Assembly (NCBI RefSeq): GCF_028023675.1
Contig: NZ_JAQIOZ010000006.1
Span: forward strand, 1 to 64,000
Reading direction: 5' to 3'
Source of the DNA: Primorskyibacter aestuariivivens
Lineage (GTDB): Bacteria; Pseudomonadota; Alphaproteobacteria; Rhodobacterales; Rhodobacteraceae
Length of the DNA: 64,000 nt
The number at the start of each line of letters is the position of its first letter. Position 1 is the stretch's first letter. This document shows positions 1 to 36,596 of this stretch, piece after piece. The position numbers and the translations under genes were made by a program. Below the pieces are notes generated by a model. The model saw only the letters and a list, made by a program, of their open reading frames with translations. It ran no database searches and was not told the origin of the DNA.

Positions 1-172
1 CGGCAAACCCCCAGCCGTGGTCTACTGGCTAAGAAAAGACGAAACCCAATCAGGTCAGCAGGAGCAAAGAGTAGCTTAATTTACGCTGAACACTGTCCAA
101 ACACTGGGGAGTAGCTCAGTTATCTGGTTGCCTGTGATAAGCACGTATTGCACTCCAAAGGGACGCCGAAGC

Positions 173-706
173 ATGGAAATTTTCAACTGTGATAGATGGG
201 ATGCCCGGTTCTTTGCAATGGCAGACCTCGTCGCGTCGTGGAGTGAGGATCGCAGCAGACGGGTCGGTTGTGTTGTCGTCGGCGATGCCAACGAGGTCAG
301 ATCGACCGGCTACAATGGCTTGCCGAGAGGTGTGAATGCAGAACACTCGGAGCGCCATTCACGCGACAACGGCGAAAAGTACCTGTGGTTCGAACACGCC
401 GAGCGAAATGCGCTGTTCAACATGCTCCGTGCTGGCGTGTCCACGTCGAACTGCCGGATGTATTGCAACAGCTTTCCCTGTGCTGATTGCGCTAGGGCAA
501 TTATCCAATCTGGGGTTGGCGAGCTTCGGACCTTTGCGCCAGATTTGAAGGACAAGAAGTTCGGCAGACACTTTGAGGTCGCCTTGGAGATGTTCAAAGA
601 AGGTGGCGTGACTGTAAGATTTTACTCGCGAAACGACGATTTGATATCCGGTGTTTTTGGTGTCTTAGAGGAAACACGCAACCCAGACAGCGGTTTTTTT
701 CGATAG
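173..706 (+). CDS. dCMP deaminase-like protein (ComEB/deoxycytidylate deaminase family)
   Basis: The 177-residue product has the zinc site of cytidine/deoxycytidylate deaminases: HAE at residues 75-77 and PCADC at 102-106 (Zn ligands H75, C103, C106; catalytic E77). It also has the GYNGLPRGV motif near residue 47 that is typical of dCMP deaminases, which make dUMP for dTMP synthesis. The family is usually 150-190 residues, so it looks complete. The ATG at 173 is preferred over one at 128, because the family begins close to the WDARFFAMADLVASWS helix. It is the first gene of the island and lies beside a DNA methyltransferase and Vsr. A role in phage-type nucleotide metabolism or defence is possible but unproven. 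A related nucleoside deaminase specificity cannot be excluded. Confidence 0.8.
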   Translation: MEIFNCDRWDARFFAMADLVASWSEDRSRRVGCVVVGDANEVRSTGYNGLPRGVNAEHSERHSRDNGEKYLWFEHAERNALFNMLRAGVSTSNCRMYCNSFPCADCARAIIQSGVGELRTFAPDLKDKKFGRHFEVALEMFKEGGVTVRFYSRNDDLISGVFGVLEETRNPDSGFFR

Positions 707-764
707 TTTGTTCGGGCAACCACGCATCGAAATGCCTCTTTGAGGCTAAGTGCCTCTCGCTTGG

Positions 765-2282
765 TCAAACCAGATCAGAAAAGACGGGTAACAGAGCCTC
801 CGCAATCTGCCGCGCAAGAAACGGCGGCACTGCATTGCCAACCTGCACGAACTGCTCAGTGCGATTGCCCATGAAGTGGTAGTTGTCTGGGAAGGTTTGC
901 AGCCGTGCGGCCTCGCGCACCGTCAGGCTGCGGCACTGCGTCGGGTCGGGATGAATGAAGTAGTGCCCGTCCTTCGAGATGTGGCTCGTTACCGTCGAAG
1001 CCGGAGCATTACCGACCTGCACACGGAACCTGTCGTTGAACTTGCCCGTTTTCCAGTTCCTGTGGTTTGGCGCCAGGATGTCTGGAAACTGGTGCGCGCG
1101 CGGGCTCTGACCCTCGGCCTTCGCGAAACAGGCGGCATAGAGGTAGCGGGCAAGATCGGATGGCATATGACCTCGAGTTTGATGACCCGAAACTCCGATC
1201 AGGTTCGGGTCGTCGAGGAACGCGGCAAGCTCGGGCTGCAGTTTCATTGATAGGGGTTTTCGCGCGTGGTTCGTTCGGCCCATCTGCGACGTTGCCAGCA
1301 ATCGCTCCTCGACACGATCCAACTCATCTCGAAAACTGCGAAAGTTCTCACCTGGGTATTCCCGAGTGATCTGACCAACGGCTTCGATCGCATCTACAAC
1401 AGCGTCATACCAGGCATGTTCGTCGTCGCGTCTGCTCAATCCGCTTCTCAGCCGCGGCAATCCGGTCAACATGTCCTTGACCTGGACCATCGTGCTCCGC
1501 CGATGAAGTCTGGGCGCGGAGACCGCGTCAATATCCGATCTGATGCCAACGATGATCACCCTGTGGCGTGCCTGCGGCACTCCGTGGTGTTCTGCGCGAA
1601 TGACGAAATCCTTCGGTTCGGGATGATCGCCCGGCTGGATGTTGGCCGTCAAGGACACGAGTCTGTAGCCGGGACCAGCATGTTGGAGATCAGACAAGAC
1701 CTGTTCGAAGATCGCCAACCCCTCGACAGACGAAGAGAGCATGCCCTTGACGTTCTCCATTACGAAAACAGCGGGACTCAACTCATTCAAGACACGACAA
1801 TATTCGCGGTAGAGGAAGTTGCGCTCATCGTCTTTCGGTCTGTAGTCCTCAATGCCTGCGTTACGTGAGCGCCCGGCAAGGGAGTAAGCTTGGCAAGGCG
1901 GGCCACCGATCAACAGCGTTCGATTGCCCGCCGTTCTTTTTGTTTCGGTAATCCTCTCCGACAGGAGCGCGGCGGTTTCTGGCTTCCCGAGCTCTGCGCA
2001 AACGGTCTCATTCTCGGCGGCATTCCATTCACGCGGATAGAGATTCTTCCAATCCGGGCAGTCGTGCTTCCCGGAAATCCATGAATAATACTCGGGTGGC
2101 AACTCGCTGAACTGGCGCAAGAACGCGCGAAGTCGGAGTGTCTTGTGCGCAGCACTATCCTTCTCAATCGAGACAGAAATCTCGTAGGCACGAGAACCAT
2201 CCGCGTGCATGCACGATGAAAATCCCTCGCCAAGGCCGCCCGGGCCGGAAAATAGATCAATTATCTGAACGGGTTTTGACAC
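765..2282 (-). CDS. DNA (cytosine-5-)-methyltransferase, solo
   Basis: This 505-residue enzyme transfers a methyl group from S-adenosylmethionine to C5 of cytosine in a specific DNA site. Visible C5-MTase motifs are motif I DLFSGPGGLGEGF (residues 9-21), the catalytic loop GGPPCQAYS with nucleophile C130, ENV at 176-178, QARHR (motif VIII) and the C-terminal TVREAARLQTFP plus VQVGNAVPP (motifs IX-X). The start is GTG at 2282 with GAGGAG about seven bases upstream. A nearby ATG is in another frame. It is divergent from vsr with 57 bases between. No partner restriction endonuclease is recognisable in the window, so it is a solo enzyme or its partner lies further left. The recognition site cannot be read from sequence. 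Confidence 0.93.
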   Translation of the reverse strand: MSKPVQIIDLFSGPGGLGEGFSSCMHADGSRAYEISVSIEKDSAAHKTLRLRAFLRQFSELPPEYYSWISGKHDCPDWKNLYPREWNAAENETVCAELGKPETAALLSERITETKRTAGNRTLLIGGPPCQAYSLAGRSRNAGIEDYRPKDDERNFLYREYCRVLNELSPAVFVMENVKGMLSSSVEGLAIFEQVLSDLQHAGPGYRLVSLTANIQPGDHPEPKDFVIRAEHHGVPQARHRVIIVGIRSDIDAVSAPRLHRRSTMVQVKDMLTGLPRLRSGLSRRDDEHAWYDAVVDAIEAVGQITREYPGENFRSFRDELDRVEERLLATSQMGRTNHARKPLSMKLQPELAAFLDDPNLIGVSGHQTRGHMPSDLARYLYAACFAKAEGQSPRAHQFPDILAPNHRNWKTGKFNDRFRVQVGNAPASTVTSHISKDGHYFIHPDPTQCRSLTVREAARLQTFPDNYHFMGNRTEQFVQVGNAVPPFLARQIAEALLPVFSDLV

Positions 2283-2339
2283 TGCATTACTCCTCGATCT
2301 CCTCTTTCCAGGTTTTCGGACTCATGGCAAGGAGTAGGA

Positions 2340-2804
2340 ATGGTAGACATCGTTGATGCCAGAACCCGCTCACGGATGATGAGCAACATTCGCGGCGAGG
2401 ATACAAAGCCCGAGCTTGCTCTCAGAAGGGCTCTTCACGCGCGAGGATTTCGATTCCGGTTGCATGTGAGGGATGTCCCCGGAAGGCCTGACATCGTGTT
2501 TCCAAGGTATCGCGCGGTCGTGTTCGTTCATGGGTGCTTCTGGCACCGTCATGCCGGTTGTCGATATGCAACCGTTCCCAAGACCCGCGCGGACTTCTGG
2601 AACAAGAAATTTGCCGCAAACGTATCCAGAGACGCTGCCGTCCACGAGAAGTTGACCAGCAAGGGGTGGCGAGTTGCGACCGTTTGGGAATGCGCTGTCC
2701 GGAACCCTGACGCATTGACGCAAACGGCAGAGAAGGTGGCAATTTGGCTCAAGTCAGATGAGCTTGGAATGGAACTCGGCGAACTTCAGGTTGAGCCGGA
2801 TTAG
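2340..2804 (+). CDS. vsr: Very short patch repair endonuclease Vsr
   Basis: Vsr nicks next to T:G mismatches that arise when 5-methylcytosine deaminates, so it protects sites methylated by a companion Dcm-type enzyme. The 154 residues carry the family signature MMSNIRGEDTKPE near the N-terminus, the PGRPDIVF motif whose aspartate falls at position 51 as in E. coli Vsr, and the zinc/aromatic segment VHGCFWHRHAGC at 63-74. An AAGGAG Shine-Dalgarno precedes the ATG by five bases. It is divergent from the cytosine methyltransferase, which is the expected partner. It is full length with no missing key residue. Confidence 0.93.
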   Translation: MVDIVDARTRSRMMSNIRGEDTKPELALRRALHARGFRFRLHVRDVPGRPDIVFPRYRAVVFVHGCFWHRHAGCRYATVPKTRADFWNKKFAANVSRDAAVHEKLTSKGWRVATVWECAVRNPDALTQTAEKVAIWLKSDELGMELGELQVEPD

Positions 2805-2879
2805 ACAATGGCGCACCGGGCCGTTGTTGTTGCCCTGTCAATATGCTTGAAACATCTGGATCGAACGCCGCCCCATAAG

Positions 2880-2895
2880 GTTGTCGATTGACAAC
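2880..2895. promoter_or_regulatory. Palindromic operator in front of the HicA-like/HTH pair
   Basis: GTTGTC-GATT-GACAAC is a perfect 6-4-6 inverted repeat. Its right arm contains the TTGACA hexamer (2888-2893) of the putative promoter, so a protein bound here would occlude RNA polymerase. That is the usual layout for antitoxin autoregulation. The likely binder is the helix-turn-helix protein encoded two genes downstream (inference). Confidence 0.55.
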
Positions 2896-2916
2896 TTAAT
2901 TCAGAAAGCCTATATC
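2888..2916 (+). promoter_or_regulatory. Putative sigma-70 promoter of the HicA-like/HTH operon
   Basis: A consensus TTGACA (2888-2893) is followed after exactly 17 bases by TATATC (2911-2916). The ATG at 2917 comes immediately after the -10 hexamer, so a normal start site would fall inside the first codons. Either the transcript is nearly leaderless with an unusual start site, or the true -10 or translation start differs. Confidence 0.4.
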
Positions 2917-3195
2917 ATGTCCCGAAAGCCGCACAAGTCCAAGGAGATCGAGGCGGTCTTGCGTGAGCTGGAAGCCTTGGGGTGGACGGTCACTCTGCGT
3001 TCCGGGCGCGGGCATGCCTGGGGCCTGATCAGGTGCCCGAACAACGATCCGGACTGCCGGTGCGGTGAGTTTTGTCAGATGGGGGTCTGGTCGACGCCCC
3101 AAAATCCGAGCCGGTTTGCCCGGCAACTGAGGAACCGAGCGCTAGGCTGTACGAAGCTCGACAATGCCGATGATGGCGCTCAAGAGGATGAATGA
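2917..3195 (+). CDS. HicA-like small protein (putative toxin of a toxin-antitoxin pair)
   Basis: The product is 92 residues from the ATG at 2917. A TTG at 2881 would add 12 residues but sits in the operator. The pattern is that of a small double-stranded-RNA-binding-like fold: a helix (KEIEAVLRELEALGW), a strand with GRGHAWG where HicA has its GSHH catalytic-histidine loop, a Cys-rich turn (CPNNDPDCRCGEFC), then WSTPQNPSRFARQLR. HicA toxins are mRNA interferases, but the assignment here rests only on this layout. The next gene begins one base after the stop (TGA-g-ATG), so the two are translationally coupled. I recall similar pairs in other proteobacteria and actinobacteria without known function. 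Confidence is high that it is a gene and low on the activity. Confidence 0.6.
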   Translation: MSRKPHKSKEIEAVLRELEALGWTVTLRSGRGHAWGLIRCPNNDPDCRCGEFCQMGVWSTPQNPSRFARQLRNRALGCTKLDNADDGAQEDE

Positions 3196-3196
3196 G

Positions 3197-3790
3197 ATGG
3201 CAGAAATCGAATTCGAACTGGTCTTCGCTCTTCCCGAAGGCGATCACGACGCATTCGATCTGATGGACGCTGTCTTCGAGGCCGGGTTCGAGGACGCCAT
3301 CGTTGGCACTGGAGTCCCTAGTATGATCGGGATCGCACTGGAAGCAGCCAGCGATAATGCCGAAGACGCCATTCTAGACGCTGCACGCGCGATCCAGAAA
3401 CAGCTTCCCGCTGGCTCTGTATTGCGCGAAGTGCGCCCGGACCTTGTCAGCCTTGCTGATGTCGCAAAGCGGCTCGACGTGACACGCCAGTCGCTCCAGA
3501 AGCGTAAAATGCCGTTGCCCAGCCAAGGCGGCCTTTTCCGCATGGAAGAGGTTGCCGTCGTCATCATGGAAGCTGCGCAAGGTAAGGGCGCAGGAACCCG
3601 CAAGGGGCGTTTCTCCGTCGAGAAGGCTGCTAGATGGCTGAGTGCTGGCAAGCCCGCGCGCAGGGTCAACGCTGGTCTTGCCGTTGGCGTCATTGACGGT
3701 ACGACGCTGGAAATCCGTGAAGATGCCAAGCACCTCCTCTACGCGGACAATCCGGCAGGCGACTCACTGAATAGTGCTGGTGCGGCCTGA
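3197..3790 (+). CDS. Helix-turn-helix protein, putative antitoxin/repressor partner
   Basis: The 197-residue product has an N-terminal alpha/beta segment (IEFELVFALP, then FDLMDAVFEAGFEDA) and a central helix-turn-helix, VSLADVAKRLDVTRQSLQKRKMPLP (about residues 87-111), followed by a basic linker and a poorly conserved tail. The start is the ATG at 3197 with AGAGG eight bases upstream. An ATG at 3188 would overlap the previous gene. The tight coupling and the operator-promoter upstream fit an autoregulating antitoxin. No enzymatic motif is visible. The N-terminal domain may contact the HicA-like protein, which is inference only. Confidence 0.6.
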   Translation: MAEIEFELVFALPEGDHDAFDLMDAVFEAGFEDAIVGTGVPSMIGIALEAASDNAEDAILDAARAIQKQLPAGSVLREVRPDLVSLADVAKRLDVTRQSLQKRKMPLPSQGGLFRMEEVAVVIMEAAQGKGAGTRKGRFSVEKAARWLSAGKPARRVNAGLAVGVIDGTTLEIREDAKHLLYADNPAGDSLNSAGAA

Positions 3791-3837
3791 ACTTCCAAAA
3801 GCTCGTGTCGGGGGAGGCGCGCTTGCTATACCGTAGT

Positions 3838-3862
3838 TTGGCAAACGGTCCCCATTTGCCAA
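3838..3862. repeat. Inverted repeat between convergent gene ends
   Basis: TTGGCAAA (3838-3845) and TTTGCCAA (3855-3862) form a perfect 8-bp stem with a 9-base loop. A further small palindrome, TTGGCACCAA, lies at 3871-3880. The site is in the only gap between the HTH gene (+) and the relaxase gene (-). There is no T-run for an intrinsic terminator. A factor-dependent terminator, or part of an oriT next to the mob genes, are both possible. Confidence 0.4.
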
Positions 3863-3882
3863 CCCACGGCTTGGCACCAAAC

Positions 3883-5439
3883 TCAATGCGTCAGCCCCCG
3901 GTCCATGTCCCGATCCCGCGCCTCTAGCTCTGTCTCAGCCACTCTTCGGCGTGCCTCGCTAAGCTCAAGCTCTCGTTCAACTTCGCGTCCAGCGCGTTGT
4001 AGGTGGCCTCTTCGCTCAGCAAGCCACGCAACGCCTGCATTGACGCGATCTGCGAGCGTATGAGCAACGTCGCGCAGCCCGCGATACCATCCAACTGGGC
4101 TTGCAGCCTCTTCGTCGAGCGCGCTTCCAAACCGCTCAATTCCTGCGCTGAGGTTTCGCAGGCCGTCACCAACCGTTCGACGCAGGCGAGCAAGTCGCGC
4201 TCCAAGGCTGTCAGGGGTGTCGTCATTCATTTCTCCTCGATCTTGATGCAGATGACCGGCGTCCCGGCCAGTGTGCAGGTCTTCAACTCGGTCCTGGCGG
4301 GGTCCAGCGTCAGCCAGGTCTGCTCCCCCTGGTCGATCCGCGTCAGGCCCAGTTCCGTCAGCTCCGAGCGCGTCAGCAGCGACGTCCAGAACCAGCTCGC
4401 GGCCATCATCGAGGCGATCCCCGTTACGATCAGCCCCGAGATCAGCCAGGGCGAGATCGTCAGCCAGCGCCTGATCTGCTCGGTCCGCGTCTCGAACAAG
4501 CTCCTGTTCTCGTTCAGGAAGCGGCGCGTATCGTTCTCGATGATACGCCGCGCGTCGTTCGCAATACCCGTCAAATCGCTCCTGAAGCTCTCCAGCTGGG
4601 ATGCCATCGAGGCGGCGTAGTCCTGGCGTATCGTGTCCAGCTCCGCGTTCAGTTTCTCGCTCAGCCGGGTCGGCTTGCCAGTCTTCATGGAAAATCTCTC
4701 CTTTCAGGCGCCAGCGTTCGCCGGTTTCGGGGTCCTGTGCGGTCAGGTAGGCTTTGCCGACGCGCGGCAGGTCGAAGCCTGCGTCCGTGAGCACGTCGAT
4801 CATGCTGGCGCGATCCTCGATCAGACCCACCGATATCTGATCGAGGATCCACGCATGCAGCTCGTCGCGGCCTTGGGCGCGGGTCGGGGCCTCGATGGTG
4901 TCGCGCACTTCTTGGGCGCGTTCCAGCTCCATCGGGTCGGCCCAGCCGTGGCGCTGGTTCATCATGTCGCGCAGACTGTCAAAGGCGTCCTGGTAGCCCG
5001 GGGGCGCGATATTGAGGCTGCGCCCGGTGGTCAGCTCAAGGCGCGGGGTGCAGAAGTGCAGCTCGATGCGGTCCTCGTGGCTGTGACGGACCCAGAGCAT
5101 GTCGTATTGCTCGCCGTCCAGCCCTGCGAAGGCGAGTAGCTCGAAGGCGTCCATCACCTCGGCCTGCTGCGCCTCGCTGGGGGCGTCCTGAGCGGCGAAG
5201 CTGATCACGCCTGCGCGGTAGGTCCATCGGTGTCGGCTGGCGTCGATCAGCGCCTCGGTGCGGCTGGGATCACCTCGCAGCACCTCGGGCAAGGGATCGC
5301 GCGTCACCATGAGGGGCTGGCCCTCGGCATCGCGTATCAGGTCGCGGTTGTCGTCATAGGCCAGCACACGCTCGGCCACGAGATAGCCGACCGGCCCCGC
5401 GCCCGCGCCCTTGCCGTTTGGGAAGAACTTGATCAGCAC
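3883..5439 (-). CDS. mbeA: Relaxase, ColE1 MbeA-like (MOBP family)
   Basis: This protein nicks oriT and pilots single-stranded DNA in plasmid mobilization. I place the start at GTG 5439, overlapping the mobC stop in GTGCTGA, because only from there (VLIKFFPNGKG...) does the protein look like a relaxase; the open frame upstream is the shadow of mobC. From this start (518 residues) the candidate catalytic tyrosine falls at Y19 (GPVGY), the same position I recall for ColE1 MbeA. The metal motif reads H119-x6-E126-x-H128 (RHSHEDRIELHF), that is HEH where ColE1 has HEN. The last third is Asp/Ala/Arg-rich, and two other genes are read there out of frame. Transfer genes (type IV secretion) are absent, so it would depend on a helper. 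Confidence 0.85.
   Translation of the reverse strand: MLIKFFPNGKGAGAGPVGYLVAERVLAYDDNRDLIRDAEGQPLMVTRDPLPEVLRGDPSRTEALIDASRHRWTYRAGVISFAAQDAPSEAQQAEVMDAFELLAFAGLDGEQYDMLWVRHSHEDRIELHFCTPRLELTTGRSLNIAPPGYQDAFDSLRDMMNQRHGWADPMELERAQEVRDTIEAPTRAQGRDELHAWILDQISVGLIEDRASMIDVLTDAGFDLPRVGKAYLTAQDPETGERWRLKGEIFHEDWQADPAERETERGAGHDTPGLRRLDGIPAGELQERFDGYCERRAAYHRERYAPLPEREQELVRDADRADQALADDLALADLGADRNGDRLDDGRELVLDVAADALGADGTGPDADRPGGADLADAGPRQDRVEDLHTGRDAGHLHQDRGEMNDDTPDSLGARLARLRRTVGDGLRNLSAGIERFGSALDEEAASPVGWYRGLRDVAHTLADRVNAGVAWLAERRGHLQRAGREVERELELSEARRRVAETELEARDRDMDRGLTH
3924..4226 (-). CDS. mbeD: MbeD/MobD-like mobilization protein nested in the relaxase gene
   Basis: This is a 100-residue, predicted largely helical protein beginning MTTPLTALERDLLACVERL, which resembles the short coiled-coil MbeD proteins of ColE1-type plasmids (entry exclusion/mobilization). 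It starts directly after the mbeB stop (TGA-ATG) with a strong GGAGA ribosome-binding site. It lies entirely inside the 3' part of mbeA in another frame. Its position as the last gene of a mobC-mbeA-mbeB-mbeD order supports the call more than the weak sequence likeness. Confidence 0.65.
   Translation of the reverse strand: MTTPLTALERDLLACVERLVTACETSAQELSGLEARSTKRLQAQLDGIAGCATLLIRSQIASMQALRGLLSEEATYNALDAKLNESLSLARHAEEWLRQS
4227..4688 (-). CDS. mbeB: MbeB/MobB-like mobilization membrane protein nested in the relaxase gene
   Basis: The product has 153 residues: an N-terminal helical, charged half (residues 1-70), one hydrophobic segment (about 77-99, ISPWLISGLIVTGIASMMAA) and a C-terminal domain ending in a small strand-rich motif (TLAGTPVICIKIEE). 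This is the architecture of ColE1 MbeB/MobB, which anchors the relaxosome at the membrane. It is read in a different frame within mbeA and has its own AAGGAGAG ribosome-binding site eight bases before ATG 4688. That site argues that it is a genuine overlapping gene and not a shadow. Confidence 0.72.
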   Translation of the reverse strand: MKTGKPTRLSEKLNAELDTIRQDYAASMASQLESFRSDLTGIANDARRIIENDTRRFLNENRSLFETRTEQIRRWLTISPWLISGLIVTGIASMMAASWFWTSLLTRSELTELGLTRIDQGEQTWLTLDPARTELKTCTLAGTPVICIKIEEK

Positions 5440-5891
5440 CGTCGCGCCTCTTCGAGAAGCTGGGCGAGCTGGCGTTCGATCACCAAAAGGCGGCGCGCGA
5501 CGGTCAGACTGTCGAGGTCGGCGCGGCCCACCAGCATCGCGCGGTTCAGCCAGCGCGCGATCTGGTTGAGGTTGCCGCCGATGCGTCCGACGGCCAGCAC
5601 CAGCGCCGGATCGACGCGCGGGACCGGCTTGCGTCGGCGCGCTTCGGTCAGACCAAGCGCCTCGCGCAAGAGCGTTGCGGCGGGCAGGCCTGCGGCTTCG
5701 GCCTTGGCGCGCAGCAGGGCCTTCTCTGCCGCCGTGCACCGGAAGACGAAGGTCTCCGTCAGCGGCTCCTTTGCGCGGGCTTTTCCCGCGCCGGCGGGGT
5801 TCGAAGGGGAGGCTTGCCGCCCCTCGCAAGGTCCCGTGTCAGAAGCGCCAGCGTGTGACATGGGTCGCCTTGCTGTTTCCTCAGACCGCAT
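5433..5891 (-). CDS. mobC: MobC/MbeC-like relaxosome accessory protein
   Basis: The 152-residue basic protein has the MobC layout: an N-terminal ribbon-helix-helix-like part (ETFVFRCTAAEKALLRAKAEAAGLPAATLLREALG) and the hallmark GRIGGNLNQIARWLNRA segment near residue 100. MobC-type proteins bind oriT and help the relaxase open it. The start is ATG 5891, preceded by GGGGGAGAA and overlapping the end of the upstream initiator gene by 11 bases. The stop overlaps the relaxase GTG start by seven bases. The three overlaps make initiator-mobC-mbeA one transcription unit. Confidence 0.85.
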   Translation of the reverse strand: MRSEETARRPMSHAGASDTGPCEGRQASPSNPAGAGKARAKEPLTETFVFRCTAAEKALLRAKAEAAGLPAATLLREALGLTEARRRKPVPRVDPALVLAVGRIGGNLNQIARWLNRAMLVGRADLDSLTVARRLLVIERQLAQLLEEARRC

Positions 5892-6732
5892 GGCGGTTCT
5901 CCCCCACGGTCGGGGCGACATCCTGCGGAAGACGTGAAGCGCGATGCATCTGGCGTGGTGCAAAGGACGTGATGCGGGGTGCTGACGACGCGGCGCATGC
6001 ACCAACCTGCGCCTGACGGATGACATCCCGCAGAAGACGCAACTGCGCCTGCCATGCCGCGCTGTCCGCCGGGGCCGGTGTCCGTGCTGGAAGCCAATAG
6101 CCCAGGTGATGCTCATGCGGTGACAGGGGCAGGCTGCGCTCCAGCGTGGTCATCCCTTCCCGGGCCAGCCGTGCATCCCAATCCCGGACAAAGCAGATGC
6201 CCCTTGGGACAAAAACCAACTCCGGGCGCGTTCCGCCGGATTGCCCTTCATCGGGCAAATCCGGCGCGGACGCGGCCCCCTGTTCTTTTCTAAGTTCTTG
6301 ATCTCTGTTCGGGGGGCGATCCTGTCCCCCTTTGCCGGACAGGTCTGTCCCGCTTTGCGGACAGGATTGTCCCCCTTTGCCGCGGCTAAGCGGGACAACC
6401 TTGTCCCCCTCCCGGCGGCGCTCGGTGGCCATTCTCAGGGCCGCTTCGGTCGGGCGGTAGCGCGAGGATTTCCCCTTGTTGGTCCCGCGCTCCACGGTCA
6501 TGTAACCCGCCGCCTCGACCTTGTTCAGCGCGCGTTTGACTGACTTGGCGTGCTTGCCGATGGCTGCGCCGATAGTCTCGAAGGACGGGCGGCTCTCGCC
6601 GGTCTCGTGGTCGGCATGGGCCAGCGCCAGGTAGAGGGCCACGCGCAGGGCGTTGTCGTCCAGCTCGTGGTCGGTGACCATCTCCAGCAGATATTGCAGC
6701 TTGATCTTGCAGAAAGGCAGAACCTCAGACAT
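5881..6732 (-). CDS. Plasmid-type replication initiator / helix-turn-helix protein with an internal repeat array
   Basis: The 283-residue product begins with a winged-helix-like domain (DNALRVALYLALAHADHETGESRPSFETIGAAIGKHAKSVKRALNKVEAAGYMTVERG, residues 25-83 in rough terms) of the kind found in plasmid and phage replication proteins (HTH_36-like). The middle (about 110-150) is a low-complexity linker with recurring KGGQ, produced by a cluster of DNA palindromes. The C-terminal part has no recognised enzyme motif. ATG 6732 has a GGAGGGG ribosome-binding site. It heads the mob operon and is the gene nearest the tRNA. It may be an initiator, or only a regulator, of the element. Confidence 0.6.
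   Translation of the reverse strand: MSEVLPFCKIKLQYLLEMVTDHELDDNALRVALYLALAHADHETGESRPSFETIGAAIGKHAKSVKRALNKVEAAGYMTVERGTNKGKSSRYRPTEAALRMATERRREGDKVVPLSRGKGGQSCPQSGTDLSGKGGQDRPPNRDQELRKEQGAASAPDLPDEGQSGGTRPELVFVPRGICFVRDWDARLAREGMTTLERSLPLSPHEHHLGYWLPARTPAPADSAAWQAQLRLLRDVIRQAQVGACAASSAPRITSFAPRQMHRASRLPQDVAPTVGENRHAV
6314..6406. repeat. Array of four 14-bp palindromes inside the initiator gene (candidate iterons)
   Basis: Units on the + strand are GGGCGATCCTGTCC (6314-6327, degenerate), GGACAGGTCTGTCC (6337-6350, perfect 6-2-6), GGACAGGATTGTCC (6359-6372) and GGACAACCTTGTCC (6393-6406, perfect 6-2-6). Each is followed by C-rich sequence, and after three of them CTTTGC. Start-to-start spacings are 23, 22 and 34 bases, close to two, two and three DNA turns, so all face one side of the helix. 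The layout resembles origins located within an initiator gene, as in lambda O. Confidence 0.6.
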
Positions 6733-6828
6733 CAGCCCCTCCCGCGATTGCGATCACGGGCGCGATCTGGTATTCATACCGTGCAAACTTTTCGATTTGG
6801 CCGTTGACGGGGGTTCCAGCCCAGTCAG

Positions 6829-6882
6829 CGGCTTTTCGGTTTCTGAGGCGAAGAGACTCACGAAACCGCCGCCGAAAAGCCG
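6829..6882. repeat. Long inverted repeat upstream of the initiator gene
   Basis: CGGCTTTTCGG (6829-6839) pairs perfectly with CCGAAAAGCCG (6872-6882), and an inner GGTTTC/GAAACC pair (6838-6843 and 6862-6867) strengthens the structure. It lies in the 222-base gap between the initiator gene and the tRNA. Such repeats occur at oriT, oriV and recombination sites; which one this is cannot be told from sequence alone. Confidence 0.5.
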
Positions 6883-6904
6883 CATAATCCGGATCAAATC
6901 CGGA

Positions 6905-6925
6905 CCGGCCCTGACTGAAGGCCGG
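6905..6925. repeat. Hairpin next to the tRNA 3' end
   Basis: CCGGCC (6905-6910) and GGCCGG (6920-6925) enclose a 9-base loop. It could end tRNA-Pro transcription, which runs leftward, but no T-run follows. It may instead belong to the element's origin or attachment region. Confidence 0.35.
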
Positions 6926-6954
6926 AACAGCACACGCTAAATCATTGAAATTAT

Positions 6955-7031
6955 TGGTCGGAGTGAGAGGATTCGAACCTCCGGCCCCTGCCTCCCGAAG
7001 ACAGTGCTCTACCAGGCTGAGCTACACTCCG
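6955..7031 (-). tRNA. tRNA-Pro (anticodon CGG)
   Basis: The 77-nt cloverleaf on the minus strand has acceptor stem CGGAGTG/CACTCCG, a D-arm with AGCTCAGCCTGGTAGAGC, an anticodon stem CTGTC/GGCAG around loop TTCGGGA (CGG at loop positions 3-5), a T-arm with GGTTCGAATCC and an encoded CCA end. It reads CCG proline codons. The 3' end points at the mobile island, which fits use of the tRNA 3' half as an integration site. Confidence 0.96.
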
Positions 7032-7075
7032 ACCGTGACGCGCGGAGTATATAAACTTCTGCCCTTTGGCAAGGG

Positions 7076-8014
7076 TCAGTTTGGCGTGTTTTTGTTGCGC
7101 AGAAATGGCGAGATCCGGAATGACGTCGGATAGGCGCGGGAGCGGGTGCGCAGCACCGGGGTTTGCGAGTCCGGGCCGCGATGGCTTTCGCGGGCGACGA
7201 TGTAGATGCCCGAGGCGATGATGATCCCGGCACCGATGACCGTGGCCACATCCACGCTTTCGCCAAAGATGAAATAGCCAAAGATCGTGGCCCAGATGAT
7301 CTGGGAATATTGCATCGGGGCAACCAGCGCGGCCTCGGACCGTTTATAGGCTCCGATCAGGAAGATACCGGCGATAAAACCCATCACCGAGATCAGTCCG
7401 ATGCCGCCCATATCGAGCAAGGGCATGGGTTCGTAGACCGGGATCATCAGCACCGCCATCAGCAGGAAATTCGCCGCCAGCGGGTAGAGCAGCAAGACCA
7501 CGGAGCGTTCTTCCCGCCCGACTTTGCGCACGATGATCGAGGCCATGGCCCCGAACACCGCTGACCCCATCGCCGCGAAATGGCCCGATGACAGCGGCGC
7601 CGATCCCGGGCGCAGCACCACGATCACACCGATCAGACCGACGAGTACGGCCAATCCACGCCGCCAGCCGACCTTTTCCCCCAGCATCGGGATCGACAGC
7701 AGTGTGATGAGCAGGGGTGACGCAAAGAGAATCGCGTAGGTCTGGGCCAGAGGCAGTACCGAAAACGCATAAAAGGCGCACATGCCGTTGATCACGGCGC
7801 AGGTAGTGCGAATGATGGTCCAGCCGGGATGAACGGGGCGAAGATTGGCCTGCGCCGTGTCCTTGATCAGCATGAAGGTGACCAGCGGAAAAGACATCAG
7901 CGTCGCGAAAAAGATGATCTGAAATGGTGAATAGGTGGCGCCCAGATGCTTGATCACCACGTCATGGGTGGCAAAGATCGCAAAGGCGATAAGGGCGAAG
8001 AAAGAGCCTTGCAT
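7076..8014 (-). CDS. EamA/DMT-family membrane transporter
   Basis: The 312-residue inner-membrane protein has about ten hydrophobic segments arranged as two EamA repeats (first repeat from FFALIAFAIFATHDVVIKHLG, second from FAAMGSAVFGAMASIIVRKVG). Drug/metabolite transporters of this type export small metabolites, but the substrate cannot be told. A hydrophilic tail of about 35 residues (from RESHRGPD) follows the last membrane helix. It stands alone beside tRNA-Pro on the same strand and is the first clearly chromosomal gene right of the island. Confidence 0.88.
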   Translation of the reverse strand: MQGSFFALIAFAIFATHDVVIKHLGATYSPFQIIFFATLMSFPLVTFMLIKDTAQANLRPVHPGWTIIRTTCAVINGMCAFYAFSVLPLAQTYAILFASPLLITLLSIPMLGEKVGWRRGLAVLVGLIGVIVVLRPGSAPLSSGHFAAMGSAVFGAMASIIVRKVGREERSVVLLLYPLAANFLLMAVLMIPVYEPMPLLDMGGIGLISVMGFIAGIFLIGAYKRSEAALVAPMQYSQIIWATIFGYFIFGESVDVATVIGAGIIIASGIYIVARESHRGPDSQTPVLRTRSRAYPTSFRISPFLRNKNTPN

Positions 8015-8096
8015 GGGGCGCGTCCGGAGAATGAGATCACGTTAGCGCTACCTCATACATCATGAGGGGACAAGGCGTCCGGTCAAATGATTTCGC

Positions 8097-8483
8097 TTAT
8101 GGGCAGGGATCGACCTGCCAACCGGTCATGTCCCTACGCCCGCATTTCTGGCGGAAGCCATAGGCGACAAGTTCCCAACGCCAATCCTCGGTGCGGCGCA
8201 GATCAAAGCGTTTCTGGATCGCGCTGACGGAATCGTCCGCCACCCCGTTTTCGGTGACTTCAACAGTCAGAAGCCCATCGTCGGAGAACCCTGCAGTCAC
8301 CTGGAGGGACGCATTGCCGCCTTCTTCCGGGAAGGACATCACCCAGTCCTGCACGTAGCTCATGGGCTGGTCGACAATCGTGGTCTCGGGGGTACGGAAA
8401 TTGGAATAGCCGGGAAGTGTGGGGATGCCATCCGCAATAGCAGGCGTGGCAAGGGTGGCGCAAATAATCAGGGTGCGGAACAT
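8097..8483 (-). CDS. Small secreted protein of unknown function
   Basis: The 128-residue product starts with a clear signal peptide (MFRTLIICATLATPAIADG, cleavage probably after AIA). The mature part is a compact, strand-rich domain with two cysteines near the C-terminus (QKCGRRDMTGWQVDPCP) that could form a disulfide in the periplasm. It is followed by a gap and then leuB on the same strand. I do not recognise the family; similar short periplasmic proteins are common in Rhodobacteraceae genomes. Confidence 0.75.
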   Translation of the reverse strand: MFRTLIICATLATPAIADGIPTLPGYSNFRTPETTIVDQPMSYVQDWVMSFPEEGGNASLQVTAGFSDDGLLTVEVTENGVADDSVSAIQKRFDLRRTEDWRWELVAYGFRQKCGRRDMTGWQVDPCP

Positions 8484-8557
8484 GGACTACCTTTCGAAAA
8501 TGGGCTGGCCCAAGCCTAGCCCATCCCCGAAAGGCAATCCGTGTTTAGATCACAGTC

Positions 8558-9664
8558 TCAGAGCGATGCGTCCAGCGCGCCAAGGATCGCGTCGCCCATC
8601 TCGGACGTGCTGACCGGGGTCACGCCCTCTTCGCCGAGCAGGTCTGCGGTACGCTTGCCGTCGGCCAGCACCTGTTCCACGGCAGCTTCAAGCCGGTCTG
8701 CCTCGTCACCTTGGTCGAAGGAGTAGCGCAGCGCCATGGCGAAGCTGAGGATACAGGCGATCGGGTTGGCCTTACCTTGTCCTGCGATATCGGGGGCGGA
8801 GCCGTGCACCGGCTCGTAAAGCGCCTTGGGACGGCCATTGGCCATCGGCGCGCCCAGAGAGGCGGAGGGCAGCATGCCGAGCGAACCGGTCAGCATGGCG
8901 GCGGCGTCGGACAGCAGATCGCCGAACAGGTTGTCGGTCACGATCACATCGAACTGTTTGGGCCAGCGGCAGAGCTGCATGGCACCTGCGTCAGCATACA
9001 TGTGGCTCAGTTCGACATCGGAATATTCCGCCTGATGCACTTCGGTCACCACGTCGCGCCACAGGATGCCGGATTCCATCACATTGGCCTTCTCCATCGA
9101 GCAGACCTTGTTGCTCCGCTTGCGGGCCAGTTCAAAGGCAGACCGCGCGACGCGGGCAATCTCGGATTCGGTATAGCGCTGGGTGTTGATGCCGACGCGC
9201 TCATTGCCTTCCTTGATGATGCCGCGCGGCTCACCAAAGTAGATGCCGGAGGTCAGTTCGCGCACGATCATGATGTCGAGCCCGGCGACCACGTCTTTTT
9301 TCAGCGAGGAGAAATCGGCCAGCGCGTCAAAGCATTGCGCGGGGCGCAGGTTCGCGAACAGGTCCATTTCCTTGCGCAGGCGCAGAAGGCCGCGCTCAGG
9401 CTTTACGCTAAAATCCAGATTGTCGTATTTCGGCCCGCCCACGGCACCCAAAAGGACGGCGTCCACTTCCTGCGCCTTGGCCATCGTGTCATCATGCAGC
9501 GGCGTGCCGTGCTTGTCATAGGCAGAGCCGCCGACGAGATCGTGGCTCACCTCAAACTTCAGCCCACGTTTGTCGCCGTACCAGTCGATGATGCGGGACA
9601 CTTCGGCCATGACCTCGGGGCCGATACCGTCACCGGGCAGGATAAGAAGGGAAGGCGTGCTCAT
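8558..9664 (-). CDS. leuB: 3-isopropylmalate dehydrogenase
   Basis: LeuB oxidatively decarboxylates 3-isopropylmalate to 2-ketoisocaproate with NAD+, the third step of leucine synthesis, in the cytoplasm. The 368-residue length is typical. Signatures are [10 protein letters not shown] (residues 8-17), [10 protein letters not shown] (substrate site), the metal-binding [13 protein letters not shown] segment, and [17 protein letters not shown] (NAD site). It is separated from leuCD by about 4 kb containing LysR, epimerase and envelope genes, so it is transcribed apart from them. Confidence 0.97.
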
Positions 9665-9723
9665 GGGCTTTGGTCCTTTGTGTGACTACGTTGCGCACCG
9701 CCTAGCCAAACCCTGCCCCATGG

Positions 9724-10620
9724 TCAAGAAACGAAGGGCAGAAGCCCGTCCCGCAGCCGGTCCCAGATCAGCGCGATACGCGGCGATTTTCGCAGGCTCT
9801 GATGCGCCGCGAGCCAGAGCGGCAGGCCAGGCAGCGGCATCTCGGGGAAGAGTCGCACAAGGTCAGGATAGCGTTTGGCCACATTGCATTGTGCAAAGCC
9901 AACGCCGCACCCCGCAAGCACCAGTTCGAAATAGACCGAATGCAGGTCGCAGCGCGTCGAGAACCAGTCACGGTCCACGTCCCACCCGGCCTGTCGCATG
10001 CCCCGGATGATCAGTTCCGAGCGATCATAGCCCACGAAATCCAGCTTGCTCAGGTCTTCCATGCTTTTGGGATGGCCGACATGGTCGAGATAGGCGCGGC
10101 TGGCATAAACCCCCAAGGGCGCGTCGCCCAGATGTTGGGTTACGATATCAAGCTGTTCGGTACGATACATGCGTACCGCGATATCGGCCTCGCGGAACAA
10201 CAGGTTGTCGCTCGCGTCGCTGGGAGCCAGCTCGATCTTGAGCTCCGGAACCTCCCGCCGAAGCTTGGCGATAATCGGGGGGAGCAGGTGATGCGCGGTG
10301 AACACGCTGGCGGTGATCCGGACCGTCCCGGCCATGTCACTGGCGCGCCCGGCGGCGGTCAGTTCGATCTGCCGGGCCGCTTCGCGCATGGCCTGTGCCG
10401 GTCCAAGAAGCGCGGCCCCTTCGGAGGTCAGGGTCAGCCCCTTTGAGTGCCGGTCAAACAGGGTGAGGGACAGCGCATCCTCCATCTGCCGGATCTGGCG
10501 GCTAACGGTGGGCTGGCTGGAGCGCAGGGCGCGGGCCGCGGCGGAGAAAGACCCGGTATCCGCGACCGTCACAAAGGTCTCGATCAGGGTCCAGTCAAGT
10601 GAGGTGAGGGATTTATCCAT
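9724..10620 (-). CDS. LysR-family transcriptional regulator
   Basis: The 298-residue protein has an N-terminal winged helix (LIETFVTVADTGSFSAAARALRSSQPTVSRQIRQME, residues 12-47) and a periplasmic-binding-protein-like effector domain from about residue 93. It is divergent from the NAD-dependent epimerase gene, the usual layout for a LysR protein controlling its neighbour. A 14-bp direct repeat overlaps its start codon and recurs 42 bases further on, so autoregulation is likely. The inducer is unknown. Confidence 0.92.
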   Translation of the reverse strand: MDKSLTSLDWTLIETFVTVADTGSFSAAARALRSSQPTVSRQIRQMEDALSLTLFDRHSKGLTLTSEGAALLGPAQAMREAARQIELTAAGRASDMAGTVRITASVFTAHHLLPPIIAKLRREVPELKIELAPSDASDNLLFREADIAVRMYRTEQLDIVTQHLGDAPLGVYASRAYLDHVGHPKSMEDLSKLDFVGYDRSELIIRGMRQAGWDVDRDWFSTRCDLHSVYFELVLAGCGVGFAQCNVAKRYPDLVRLFPEMPLPGLPLWLAAHQSLRKSPRIALIWDRLRDGLLPFVS

Positions 10621-10669
10621 TCATATGTGAATATCATAGCGTCATATTTTGGCAATATCCATTCATATG
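10614..10669. promoter_or_regulatory. Paired 14-bp direct repeats in the LysR/epimerase divergent promoter
   Basis: TATCCATTCATATG occurs at 10614-10627 and again at 10656-10669, exactly 42 bases (four helical turns) apart. The first copy spans the LysR start codon; the second lies 44 bases before the epimerase gene. A regulator bound to both copies would lie on one DNA face. The LysR protein is the natural candidate. Confidence 0.6.
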
Positions 10670-10712
10670 ATGCGCACCTAACGTCTCCTGAGATTTTGCA
10701 GGAGAGCATAAC

Positions 10713-11651
10713 ATGTCTGGTACAGCACTCATTCTTGGCGGCTCGGGCCGTTTCGGGCGTCACATGGCGGCGGAGCTTTGGAACAAAGGCTGGACCGTTC
10801 GCCAGTTTGATCGCGCACGCGATGAGCTTGCGCAGGCGGCTCAGGGTGTTGATGTCATCGTCAACGGCTGGAACCCGCCCTATCACAAATGGCAGTCCGA
10901 CCTGCCGGGACAGACCGATGCCATCATTGCCGCCGCACGCGCCAGCGGCGCGCGGGTGGTGCAGGCGGCAAACGTTTATGTGTTTGGCGAAGGCAATGGC
11001 GGCGCGTTCGGGCCGGATCATCCGCATAAGGCCACGAACCCGCTGGGGCGCATCCGCATGGAGATGGAAGCCAAGCTATACGCTTCTGACGTCCCGCTCC
11101 TGATCCTGCGGTCCGGTGACTACCTTGATACCGAGGCTTCGGGAAACTGGTTCGACCGTTTGATCACCAAGCCGCTGGCCAAGGGGCGGATCGCCTATCC
11201 CGGCGACCCGGATGTGCCACATGCATGGGCGTTTCTGCCCGATGTTGCGCGGATGGGGGCAAGCTTTCTGGCGCGGGATGACCTTCCCCATCAGCTTGAG
11301 GTCACAACGGCGGATTACACCCTGAGCGGTCGGGACATGGCCGCGGCCCTTGGCGAGATTTTGGGCCGCGACATTCGCGTCACGCCGTTTGCGTGGTGGC
11401 AATTGCATCTTGCGCGGCCGGTCATGCCGATCCTGAAGGGTGTGATCGAGATGCGCTATCTCTGGAGTCGACCGCACTGGATGGATGACAGCGCGTGGCG
11501 GGCATGGTGCACCGGCTTTCAGCCGACGCCATTGGTCGAAGCGCTGTCGCAATGCGCCGGGGTCAGCGATCTGTTGGCCAGACAAGATCAACCCAGACCA
11601 GCCCATGACGGCTTGCCTGTGCAGCAACGCTCTCAGGCTCCGGCCAGATAA
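10713..11651 (+). CDS. NAD-dependent epimerase/dehydratase-like protein
   Basis: The 312-residue protein has an N-terminal Rossmann fold with the nucleotide motif ILGGSGRFGRHMA (residues 7-19) and looks like an atypical short-chain dehydrogenase. The usual YxxxK pair is not evident: the expected position reads NPLGRIRMEMEAK, with the lysine but no tyrosine, so catalysis may differ. It is divergent from the LysR gene, which probably controls it. Its last 89 bases overlap the end of the convergent endonuclease/phosphatase-family gene. The substrate is unknown. Confidence 0.8.
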   Translation: MSGTALILGGSGRFGRHMAAELWNKGWTVRQFDRARDELAQAAQGVDVIVNGWNPPYHKWQSDLPGQTDAIIAAARASGARVVQAANVYVFGEGNGGAFGPDHPHKATNPLGRIRMEMEAKLYASDVPLLILRSGDYLDTEASGNWFDRLITKPLAKGRIAYPGDPDVPHAWAFLPDVARMGASFLARDDLPHQLEVTTADYTLSGRDMAAALGEILGRDIRVTPFAWWQLHLARPVMPILKGVIEMRYLWSRPHWMDDSAWRAWCTGFQPTPLVEALSQCAGVSDLLARQDQPRPAHDGLPVQQRSQAPAR

Positions 11652-12681
11652 TACCGTTGTCACGCACGGTCAGATCTGCGGAAGGAAGCACATAGTCCAC
11701 CCGCAGATCCCCGGGCGCGGGCTCGTCCCAGTTGGCGGTGTCGAGCGCTGGGTCGCCCGACTGGCCCGGCCCTTGCGGCGGGTCGGCGTGATCGCGGCGC
11801 GGTTCGGGGTCTTGCAGCCGTGGATCGCTGAGCAGCTCCATAATGGCTTCATGCCGTCCTTCACCGTCCACGGGATCAAGATTGGCGGTTCCCATCAGCG
11901 CGTAGGGACCCGGCAAGACCGGCCCAATCGCGCCATCGAGGTAATGCTGCCAGAAGCGGATTTCGTCATGATTGCGCCGCCCGTTGCGGTCCTCTGGCCC
12001 GTCAAAAACCGGCGGGGTCGCGTGAAAGGCGAGGATCGTAATAGGGCCGCCGGGGGTCTCGACCGGCACCACCCAATGCGCGGCGCTGGACAGGCGCTGC
12101 ACGTCGCGCAGTTCGGGCGGAAGAACCGCACCCGTGATCAACGCATCGGGCAAGTCGGCCCAGAGAAAAGACGAGAAATCCTGCGCATGTTCAAGGTTCA
12201 GAGGATAGCGTGACAGCAAGGCCATTGCGCCATCACCGGTGAACCGCCCGAACCCGTGCGAATCCTCGGCCTCGCCCAGTCGTCTGTCGCCATCCAGATC
12301 CGCGCTGCTGTCCAGCCCGGCGTTTTGCGGGGGCGCGTAGGCATGGGAATAGTCCAGCCCGACATCCGTCAAGGCCGCCCGCAGGGCGTCGAGGGTCAGG
12401 TGACCCGCATCGTGATCAAGATCGGTCAGCAGCACGATGTCGGGCGATGCCTTTGCCATGATGTGGACGAAACCGATGATCTGTGGGTCATCTCCGCGCT
12501 GCAAGTCCCGCAGCAATAGGCCGGGGCCGTCCCGGCTCAGGTCAGTGTGATAGGTCGCGATACGAAGCGTGTCGGCCTGGGCAATCCCGCCCATCAGGCA
12601 CAGCGCCGCGATCAGCCCGCGTGTTGTGCCCGCGCATAGGCGCGCCGCCGCTTTTCCTCGATAAGCTCGGCGACGCGGCAC
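11563..12681 (-). CDS. Secreted endonuclease/exonuclease/phosphatase (EEP) family protein
   Basis: The EEP fold is visible from RIATYHT (start of the domain), SPDIVLLTDLDHD, ALLSRYPL, ILAFHATPP and ALMGTANLDPVDGEGR to a final RVDYVLPS. These are the usual metal and phosphate positions of DNase I-like hydrolases. A signal peptide-like stretch ends in GGIAQA. The start is uncertain: GTG 12681 gives 372 residues with a basic n-region, and the first internal ATG would leave almost no signal peptide. It overlaps the upstream membrane gene by 70 bases and the convergent epimerase gene by 89. The substrate (nucleic acid, lipid or other phosphodiester) is unknown. Confidence 0.75.
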   Translation of the reverse strand: MPRRRAYRGKAAARLCAGTTRGLIAALCLMGGIAQADTLRIATYHTDLSRDGPGLLLRDLQRGDDPQIIGFVHIMAKASPDIVLLTDLDHDAGHLTLDALRAALTDVGLDYSHAYAPPQNAGLDSSADLDGDRRLGEAEDSHGFGRFTGDGAMALLSRYPLNLEHAQDFSSFLWADLPDALITGAVLPPELRDVQRLSSAAHWVVPVETPGGPITILAFHATPPVFDGPEDRNGRRNHDEIRFWQHYLDGAIGPVLPGPYALMGTANLDPVDGEGRHEAIMELLSDPRLQDPEPRRDHADPPQGPGQSGDPALDTANWDEPAPGDLRVDYVLPSADLTVRDNGIIWPEPESVAAQASRHGLVWVDLVWPTDR

Positions 12682-35429: not shown

Positions 35430-36596
35430 TCAGGGTTTGGACAGGGGGACAACCTTGTCCGCTTCGTCCGGAGCCAGTTCCTCGAAATCGAAATTGTCAA
35501 GCTTGCGGGCGCGGCGTCCGGCCTTGTCGGCGCTGATCTTGATGTCCGAGATATCCTTGGACGCCTGATGGAAATGCCGGTCAAGGTTTTCGACCCGCGT
35601 GCTCAGCCGATCCACATCGGCAAAAAGTAACCCCAGTTCGCGGCGGATTGCGCCCGCCTGTTCGCGCATGCGGGCGTCTTTGAGGATCGCGCGCATGGTG
35701 TTCAGCGTGGCCATGCAGGTGGTGGGCGACACGATCCAGACCCGCGCGGCAAAACCTTCGCGCACGATCTCGGGGAAATTGGCGTGCAGCTCGGCATAGA
35801 CCGCCTCGGAGGGCAGGAACATCAATGCTCCGTCGGCAGTTTCGCCGTCGATGATGTATTTTCCGGCAATGTCTTTGATGTGCTTGCGCAGTGAAACGCG
35901 CAATTGTTGGGCGGCACGTTGCAATCGCTCTGGGCTGTCGGCCCGGCGCAGCGCCTCATAGGCTTCCAGCGGGAATTTGCTGTCGATGGCGATCGGCCCA
36001 GGCGGATTGGGCAGATGGATCAGGCAATCGGCGCGTTTGCCGTTCGATAGTGTTGCTTGCATCGTGTAGCTGTCTGACGGCAGGGCCTTGTAGACGATGT
36101 CATTGAGCTGGATCTCGCCAAAGGCCCCGCGCGTCTGCTTGTTCGACAGGATGTCCTGAAGGGACAGCACATCGCCAGACAGTTTGGTGATATTGTCCTG
36201 CGCCTTGTCGATGGCGGTAAGCCGCTCCTGCAATTCCCCAAGGCTCTTGGCCGTGCGCCGGGCCGAGCCATGCAGGTTTTCATTCATATGCTGCTGCACA
36301 TCCGCCAGCCGCTGTTCCATCATCTGCAACATCTTGATCTGGCTTTGCGCCTGCGCTTCCGACACGTGATGCAAGCCGCCCGAAAGCCGTTCCTGTCCCT
36401 CGCCCAACGCCTGCACACGCTGGCCCAGGGATCCAAGCTGATGGGCCAGCGGCTCGACCGCCTGCGCGGACCGACCCGCTGCGCGCACGGCGGTGATGAG
36501 CAGGGCAAGGATCAGAAGGACCAAGATCGCCCCGCCGAGAGCGGCCAGAACCAGCGGATCGCTGAAGGAATAGGATGTGTCGCCAATGGTGATCAT
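35430..36596 (-). CDS. rmuC: DNA recombination protein RmuC
   Basis: RmuC restrains inversion and rearrangement at short repeats and has a PD-(D/E)XK-like nuclease core. The 388 residues have one N-terminal membrane helix ([21 protein letters not shown]), a coiled coil (about 50-140) and the conserved core [49 protein letters not shown] and [43 protein letters not shown] links it to mutL upstream. It ends tail to tail with chrR without a gap. Confidence 0.94.

Follow-up and report, generated by a model that had tools for sequence, protein, structure and literature searches.

The palindromes that recur within an initiator-like gene of Primorskyibacter aestuariivivens very probably belong to a lambda-type replication origin, made up of iterons and an unwinding tract, that lies inside the gene of its own initiator and is carried by a proposed integrative mobilizable element in tRNA-Pro. 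The stretch of DNA analysed, hereafter the window, consists of the first 64,000 nucleotides of contig NZ_JAQIOZ010000006.1. The array statistics of the single gene are suggestive, and it is the comparative evidence from homologs, viral contigs and other HTH_36 genes that decides.

The initiator-like gene and its product

5881–6732, minus strand: initiator-like gene of 283 amino acids, matching Pfam HTH_36 and PHROG O-like replication initiation

With respect to its family, the encoded protein belongs to HTH_36 (PF13730), with a score of 31.6 bits against a Pfam cut-off of 25, and its residues 29–114 match the PHROG profile for O-like replication initiation (E = 6.4e-8). HTH_36 is the sole Pfam match at E up to 0.1, a threshold at which neither Phage_rep_O (PF04492) nor a RepA_N domain was matched. 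The protein is organized into a winged HTH domain corresponding to HTH_36 (approximately residues 7–107), a linker (residues 111–168) and a small C-terminal domain (residues 173–243). The AlphaFold2 model displays a confident winged helix, a pLDDT below 50 at residues 111–168 and then the small domain, and the linker, whose DNA carries the array, is predicted to be disordered. The top fold matches are of the MarR/ArsR type, two of them with E up to 0.001, and comparison with the PDB returned generic winged helices. Comparison with a viral library yielded mainly phage HTH proteins, with TM-scores by query length of at most 0.30, some of them named replication protein O, replicon initiation protein or replisome organizer. 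A search of the solved structures by sequence gave nothing convincing. The C-terminal domain matched no Pfam family at E up to 1, which leaves helicase recruitment unsupported.

Relatives of the initiator occur in Roseovarius, Marivita, Salipiger, Ruegeria and other Rhodobacteraceae-type records. Used as a query, the protein itself found no relative among viral contigs and one weak match among phage records. In positions 1–12000 of the window, the tRNA is the sole Rfam match.

The palindrome array

6393–6406: palindrome 1, GGACAACCTTGTCC on the plus strand, an exact GGACA-N4-TGTCC
6359–6372: palindrome 2, GGACAGGATTGTCC on the plus strand, an exact GGACA-N4-TGTCC
6337–6350: palindrome 3, GGACAGGTCTGTCC on the plus strand, an exact GGACA-N4-TGTCC
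6314–6327: palindrome 4, degraded, GGACAGGATCGCCC on the minus strand, with two mismatches in one arm

The extent given to the array in the preliminary description, 6314–6406 with start-to-start spacings of 23, 22 and 34, was confirmed on recheck. Its four recurring 14-mers consist, more precisely, of three exact copies and a fourth one altered in one arm, which is exact in the relatives L012 and L024 and in a Rhizobium homolog (L159). The array begins about 325 nt into the gene, and the three exact palindromes occur at gene offsets 326, 360 and 382, which correspond to three different reading frames, so that it is the DNA, not the protein, that is kept. The four palindromes are translated as GDKVVP, GGQSCP, GTDLS and GGQDRP; the description of the encoded segment as a KGGQ-rich linker thus held half of the picture, since the exact copies are read in three frames. 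For the same reason, protein repeats or a tandem duplication were rejected as the cause of the array.

Over the whole window, the count of the motif is ordinary, with 4 matches at no more than one mismatch against a shuffle mean of 2.04, and 4 matches being reached by 13 of 100 shuffles; this raw count was rejected as evidence, as it does not exceed the shuffles. The unusual feature is the occurrence of three copies in 70 bp within one gene. None of 5000 synonymous shuffles of the gene reaches three exact sites (maximum 2), for a GGACA motif that was picked after being seen, and when any recurrent palindrome is counted, three copies are reached by 20 of 1000 synonymous shuffles. With one mismatch allowed in the linker, the four copies observed are reached by 0 of 200 shuffles. 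A lone exact GGACAACCTTGTCC, the same as palindrome 1, is located at 35447–35460, far from the element, and may be due to chance.

Conservation of the DNA among homologs

6223–6402: codons 111–170, low in synonymous diversity among the window and 13 loci (14 sequences, all full-length); the in-gene origin is proposed to span this stretch

Synonymous diversity amounts to 0.11 in the palindrome sites and 0.04 in codons 141–150, compared to 0.32 in codons 1–108, among 26 sequences comprising the window and 25 of 35 loci, after exclusion of the indel-bearing or truncated ones. While synonymous diversity falls in codons 111–170, amino-acid diversity is not lowered, and 36 of the 56 variants found there alter the initiator protein. 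Homologs with a similar linker keep the palindromes at the DNA level, the opposite of the outcome that the preliminary description had regarded as damaging to an in-gene origin. The Rhizobium homolog, although 33% identical, possesses palindrome-like sites, each with no more than one mismatch, at offsets 327, 383 and 406, and these occupy three of the four array offsets. Two relatives, L030 and L031, have arrays with a smaller number of palindromes and encode shorter proteins, of 139 and 209 amino acids; their reduced arrays might result from recombination between repeats.

A second overlapping gene was considered as the cause of the low synonymous diversity. Of 33 sequences, 27 have a second forward frame that stays open from CDS position 325 to 510; on the antisense strand, 29 have such an open frame, though the window does not. 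The second forward frame is, however, closed in six sequences (L021, L026, L028, L029, L158 and L159) and altered by 41 of the 56 variants in codons 111–170, so that an overlapping gene is not supported.

The AT-rich tract and a further inverted repeat

6281–6309: AT-rich tract, candidate DNA-unwinding element, 69% AT in a gene of 35% AT
6235–6265: further inverted repeat, GCCGGATTGCCC, loop, GGGCAAATCCGGC, with arms of 12–13 nt, past the AT tract

Located 3' of the array, the tract is the AT-richest of the gene, ranking top of its 824 windows of 29 nt, and is strongly conserved in homologs. Its position on a fixed side of the array extends to other genes: the 45 nt past the array are richer in AT than the gene average in 14/15, 9/9, 14/17, 64/65 and 30/30 genes of five sets (131/136), a comparison that covers the genes whose array lies above all shuffles, plus the window and L001–L029. 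The inverted repeat is kept in many homologs and in a Neotabrizicola plasmid, and is missing in the Rhizobium homolog; synonymous diversity around it is 0.12 in codons 151–160 and 0.03 in codons 161–170.

Recurrence in viral contigs and in other HTH_36 genes

Similar arrays were recovered from viral contigs with a pattern based on DNA only, namely a pair of GGACA-TGTCC palindromes separated by 4 to 30 bp. At least 120 stretches correspond to this pattern, compared to 4 for one scrambled palindrome of the same composition. Among the matches listed, an open reading frame of at least 60 amino acids covers the sites in 116 of 120 stretches; with E up to 0.01 as the limit, 68 of these 116 frames hit HTH_36; phrog_270 (replication initiation) is hit by 70, and 75 are positive with an iterated HTH profile which, being seeded partly from GGACA-pattern genes, leans towards such genes. 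No HTH was found with this profile in the other 41 of the 116 listed frames, whose palindrome centres are also mostly N4. The 75 HTH-bearing genes listed form 36 clusters at 40% identity. Among them, the palindromes begin 12 to 53 amino acids past the HTH in 72 genes and use two or three frames in 51. The differing linkers of these phage initiators thus hold identical palindromes read in other frames, as the preliminary description had invited one to look for, and the peptides DKNV, GQKCP and RTKMS correspond to one DNA word read in three frames.

A family, A2, was selected by the protein N-terminus, using an alignment of nine rows over the N-terminal HTH, one of which (L092) extends slightly into the linker. 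At least two GGACA sites occur in 51 of its 70 genes, with a mean of 3.2 sites against 0.45 in synonymous shuffles; as the query genes came from the GGACA pattern, A2 was already known to carry GGACA. The 70 genes derive from 80 loci, of which eight without an ORF of 150 amino acids from the match start and two duplicates were dropped. Spacings in A2 cluster at 22, 24, 32–33 and 42, in related genes which are not independent.

The region past the HTH was also searched de novo for recurrent palindromes of any kind in four sets, the Rhodobacterales and phylum-wide ones being selected by Pfam score. This search used 154 of 192 loci, leaving aside those without an HTH match, those with fewer than 60 amino acids past the HTH, and duplicates. 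Arrays above all 50 synonymous shuffles occur in 106 of the 154 genes, compared to 2 of 136 control windows taken mid-ORF. Depending on the set, such arrays were detected in 15 of 24 genes (Rhodobacterales), 9 of 22 (phylum-wide), 17 of 33 (second viral family) and 65 of 75 (first viral family), and no array above shuffles was found in the other 9, 13, 16 and 10 genes, respectively; the arrays are not universal. Other subfamilies possess other arms, such as GTCCG-N5-CGGAC, GTCTC-N5-GAGAC, GTGAA-N5-TTCAC and TGACA-N4-TGTCA, among more, and their arrays hold 2–7 spaced copies. In phage Pam5, a tblastn match that overlaps no annotated feature lies in an initiator-like ORF (L160, positions 2902–3738), which contains GTCAGAATGTGAC three times in-gene.

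Joint switching of the palindrome arms

6532–6534, minus strand: Arg67 codon, encoding a recognition-helix residue proposed to read the arms

In the A2 family, the arrays stay at approximately the same codons while all of their copies switch arms together, the arm types being GGACA, CGACA, GGAAG/CGGAA, CGGTA or GGCAG. The column of Arg67 tops the mutual information with arm type, narrowly, with a value of 0.85 followed by 0.84 and 0.83 for the next columns. It contains R in all 48 R-GACA genes and in the one CGACA gene, and S, T or N in all 12 GGAAG, GGCAG and CGGTA genes; R is also found in L265, which carries another palindrome, and in eight A2 genes with fewer than three sites. Among the listed HTH-bearing genes of the DNA pattern, the column is R in 72 of 75, and throughout in 33 of the 36 clusters, and it is R in 21 of 46 genes of the Rhodobacterales and phylum samples. 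From this association, Arg67 is proposed to read the palindrome arms.

The occurrence of R in 33 of 33 genes of the second viral family, with or without an array, indicates that lineage contributes to the pattern. On a tree built without the recognition helix, three arm switches are counted on the best tree and one on supported branches, so few that the phylogenetic test of covariation has little power. When tested on this tree, the covariation of arm and residue falls short of what the raw counts indicate.

The proposed mobile element and its plasmid relative

5433–6116, minus strand: NikA/MobC mobilization protein, whose listed ORF starts within the initiator gene
3883–5829, minus strand: MbeA-like relaxase ORF, with a Pfam Relaxase score of 24.1 bits, just below the cut-off of 24.6
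6953–7000: 48-bp repeat forming the 3' part of tRNA-Pro(CGG), with a second copy on contig C4 by a tyrosine integrase

The relaxase ORF matches the NCBIfam MbeA model with E = 1.6e-34, at a score far under the cut-off of that model. The 48-bp repeat is proposed as an attachment end, and the whole as an integrative and mobilizable element in tRNA-Pro, the MOB genes of which occur in the window while the integrase and the second repeat sit on another contig. As contig C4 ends about 10.9 kb past its repeat and the contig of the window (C6) begins at window base 1, the element would reach at least 17.8 kb and have been split by the assembly. Genes for a deaminase, a C5-cytosine methylase and a Vsr endonuclease, located at 128–2804, are likely cargo of the same element.

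An exact tRNA-Pro core is found 222–223 nt before the initiator gene in 11 of 37 related loci. In 16 related loci, a conserved block starting with AGTGGTGAGCCGTG occurs about 240 nt before the gene (L001–L007, L009–L014, L024, L028 and L032); the DNA preceding it differs in 15 of the 16, and the contig of L013 begins at the block. The initiator-MOB module may therefore, to judge from these flanks, also reside in another type of element that ends differently.

The Neotabrizicola plasmid (L157, NZ_CP069374, 16.6 kb) encodes an initiator homolog, 66% identical, which keeps the array and is the sole HTH_36 match of the plasmid. No other replication domain was found in the scan of 10 of its 11 annotated genes and the relaxase frame, and the homolog is thus the sole replication candidate scanned there. 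Next to its initiator and MOB genes, this plasmid carries defence-like cargo (SIR2, HerA-like, PLD and DEAD helicase-like, Fic and DUF3427).

Relation to known in-gene origins

Origins located within initiator genes have been described previously. According to the available part of the source, lambdoid origins sit in the middle of the O gene (PMC7466680), and the record annotation of lambda places the iterons at approximately codons 117–145 of O. The origin of lambda and those of Stx phages resemble the window in their mid-gene iterons, in an overlapping codon range and in an AT-rich block on the same side. As in lambda, the iterons of the window gene lie between the DNA-binding and C-terminal parts, and an AT-rich tract adjoins them. 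The two differ by the arms, which are TCCCT-N7 in lambda and GGACA-N4 in the window, by the family PF04492 to which lambda O belongs and which the window protein does not match, and by the replicon, lambda being a phage whereas the window initiator sits on a mobilizable element. Used as a positive control, lambda yielded three of its four iterons in the de novo search; three copies were also reached by 1 of 100 shuffles, which makes this control modest.

Among plasmids, pSK41 (RepA_N) contains four Rep boxes centrally in rep, and the protein part encoded by its origin is a dispensable linker, as stated in the accessible portion of the report (PMC5703833). The sites of the window similarly occupy the centre of the initiator gene and encode a linker, in a protein that, unlike that of pSK41, has no RepA_N match at E up to 0.1. 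The same portion describes the Gram-positive plasmid pPR9, in which an HTH_36-type N-terminus precedes a pSK41 C-terminus, with an exchanged segment of some 500 bp that covers both the DNA-binding domain and the origin, and with a mini-replicon that works (PMC5703833). By inspection, rep of pPR9 contains in-gene direct repeats followed by an AT-rich stretch, and no palindrome array above shuffles was detected in it (39 of 200 reach its score). It differs from the window by these direct repeats and by an HTH_36 score of 19.8 bits, below the Pfam cut-off.

In the Paracoccus plasmids pAES7, pMARC3 and pMOS2, which share an HTH_36 Rep with the window, the excerpt available differs in predicting an oriV with iteron-like repeats upstream of rep, outside the coding sequence; a host-range test in the same study included a clone of the pAES7 REP region (PMC3832669). 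Among the open-access articles listed, none gave an account of GGACA arrays within genes, or of an origin inside the gene as the norm in HTH_36 initiators. The preliminary description, which knew of no account for this family, agrees with that result but needs narrowing, since the exchange of an HTH_36 in-gene origin is known from pPR9 in the part of the report at hand (PMC5703833). The architecture itself is already known from lambda O and pSK41; the apparent novelty lies in the family, in its breadth, in sites that are read in several frames and in arms that switch jointly.

Proposed mechanism and alternative explanations

From this anatomy, we infer protein binding, unwinding, helicase recruitment and replication as follows. 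The N-terminal winged HTH, probably as dimers, would bind the GGACA-N4-TGTCC iterons, set at intervals of roughly two or three turns of the helix in the DNA that encodes the flexible linker. The initiator-iteron complex would then open the AT-rich tract just 3' of the array, and the C-terminal domain would recruit the host helicase. The integrative and mobilizable element would use this in-gene origin after excision or transfer.

It is improbable, though worth weighing first, that the array is an autoregulatory operator that mainly represses transcription of its own gene as a roadblock, or counts copies, with the true origin elsewhere. The resemblance of the winged HTH to MarR/ArsR regulators agrees with such a role, and a simple promoter scan of 5800–7100, which gave no promoter, is of no help either way. 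An operator is, however, poorly compatible with an array about 325 nt inside the gene and with the 2–7 spaced copies of other arrays, with the AT enrichment of the next 45 nt in 131 of 136 genes of the five sets, and with a layout like that of the annotated lambda origin.

There is little probability that the segment, instead of being an origin, is bound by a host factor or serves in partition or incompatibility. In plasmids, copy control can be a further function of iteron arrays, according to the accessible part of the source (PMC3832669), but the switching of the arms at approximately the same codons, together with a change in the encoded HTH, points to a cis-encoded protein.

An RNA-level element, in which the palindromes act as hairpins of the initiator mRNA, is very unlikely. 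By inspection, each exact palindrome could form a stem of 5 bp with a loop of 4 nt; hairpins nevertheless require pairing alone, whereas the same arm letters are kept within a gene and switched jointly, the spacings are near helical multiples and the arms associate with a DNA-binding residue.

Least credible is a coding constraint, whereby useful peptide repeats of the linker or a second overlapping gene would preserve the DNA: the linkers appear repetitive (KGGQ, DKNV, RTKMS) and both additional frames are mostly open, but a single 14-mer occurs in up to three frames, most variants alter the initiator (36/56) and the second frame (41/56), the latter is closed in six sequences, and the linker is predicted to be disordered.

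Significance for HTH_36 initiators

Beyond the single element, we incline, with some reserve, to the view that an origin inside the linker is the usual design of initiators of the HTH_36 class in phages, plasmids and mobile elements, the arms being set by the recognition helix. Most origins of phages and small mobile elements are not known to have been mapped. If this class carries its origin at a fixed place past the HTH, origins would become predictable from the gene alone, and both the origin and the binding specificity of many unannotated initiators could be read from one gene, as a recognition code with a built-in target. The odd repetitive linkers of these proteins would then find their explanation in a single DNA word read in three frames. 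Plasmid iterons determine incompatibility, as the available text of one study has it (PMC3832669). Under the same condition, incompatibility groups might be guessed from the palindrome arms. The joint change of a DNA-binding domain and its site would also be open to study in many natural pairs that are physically linked.
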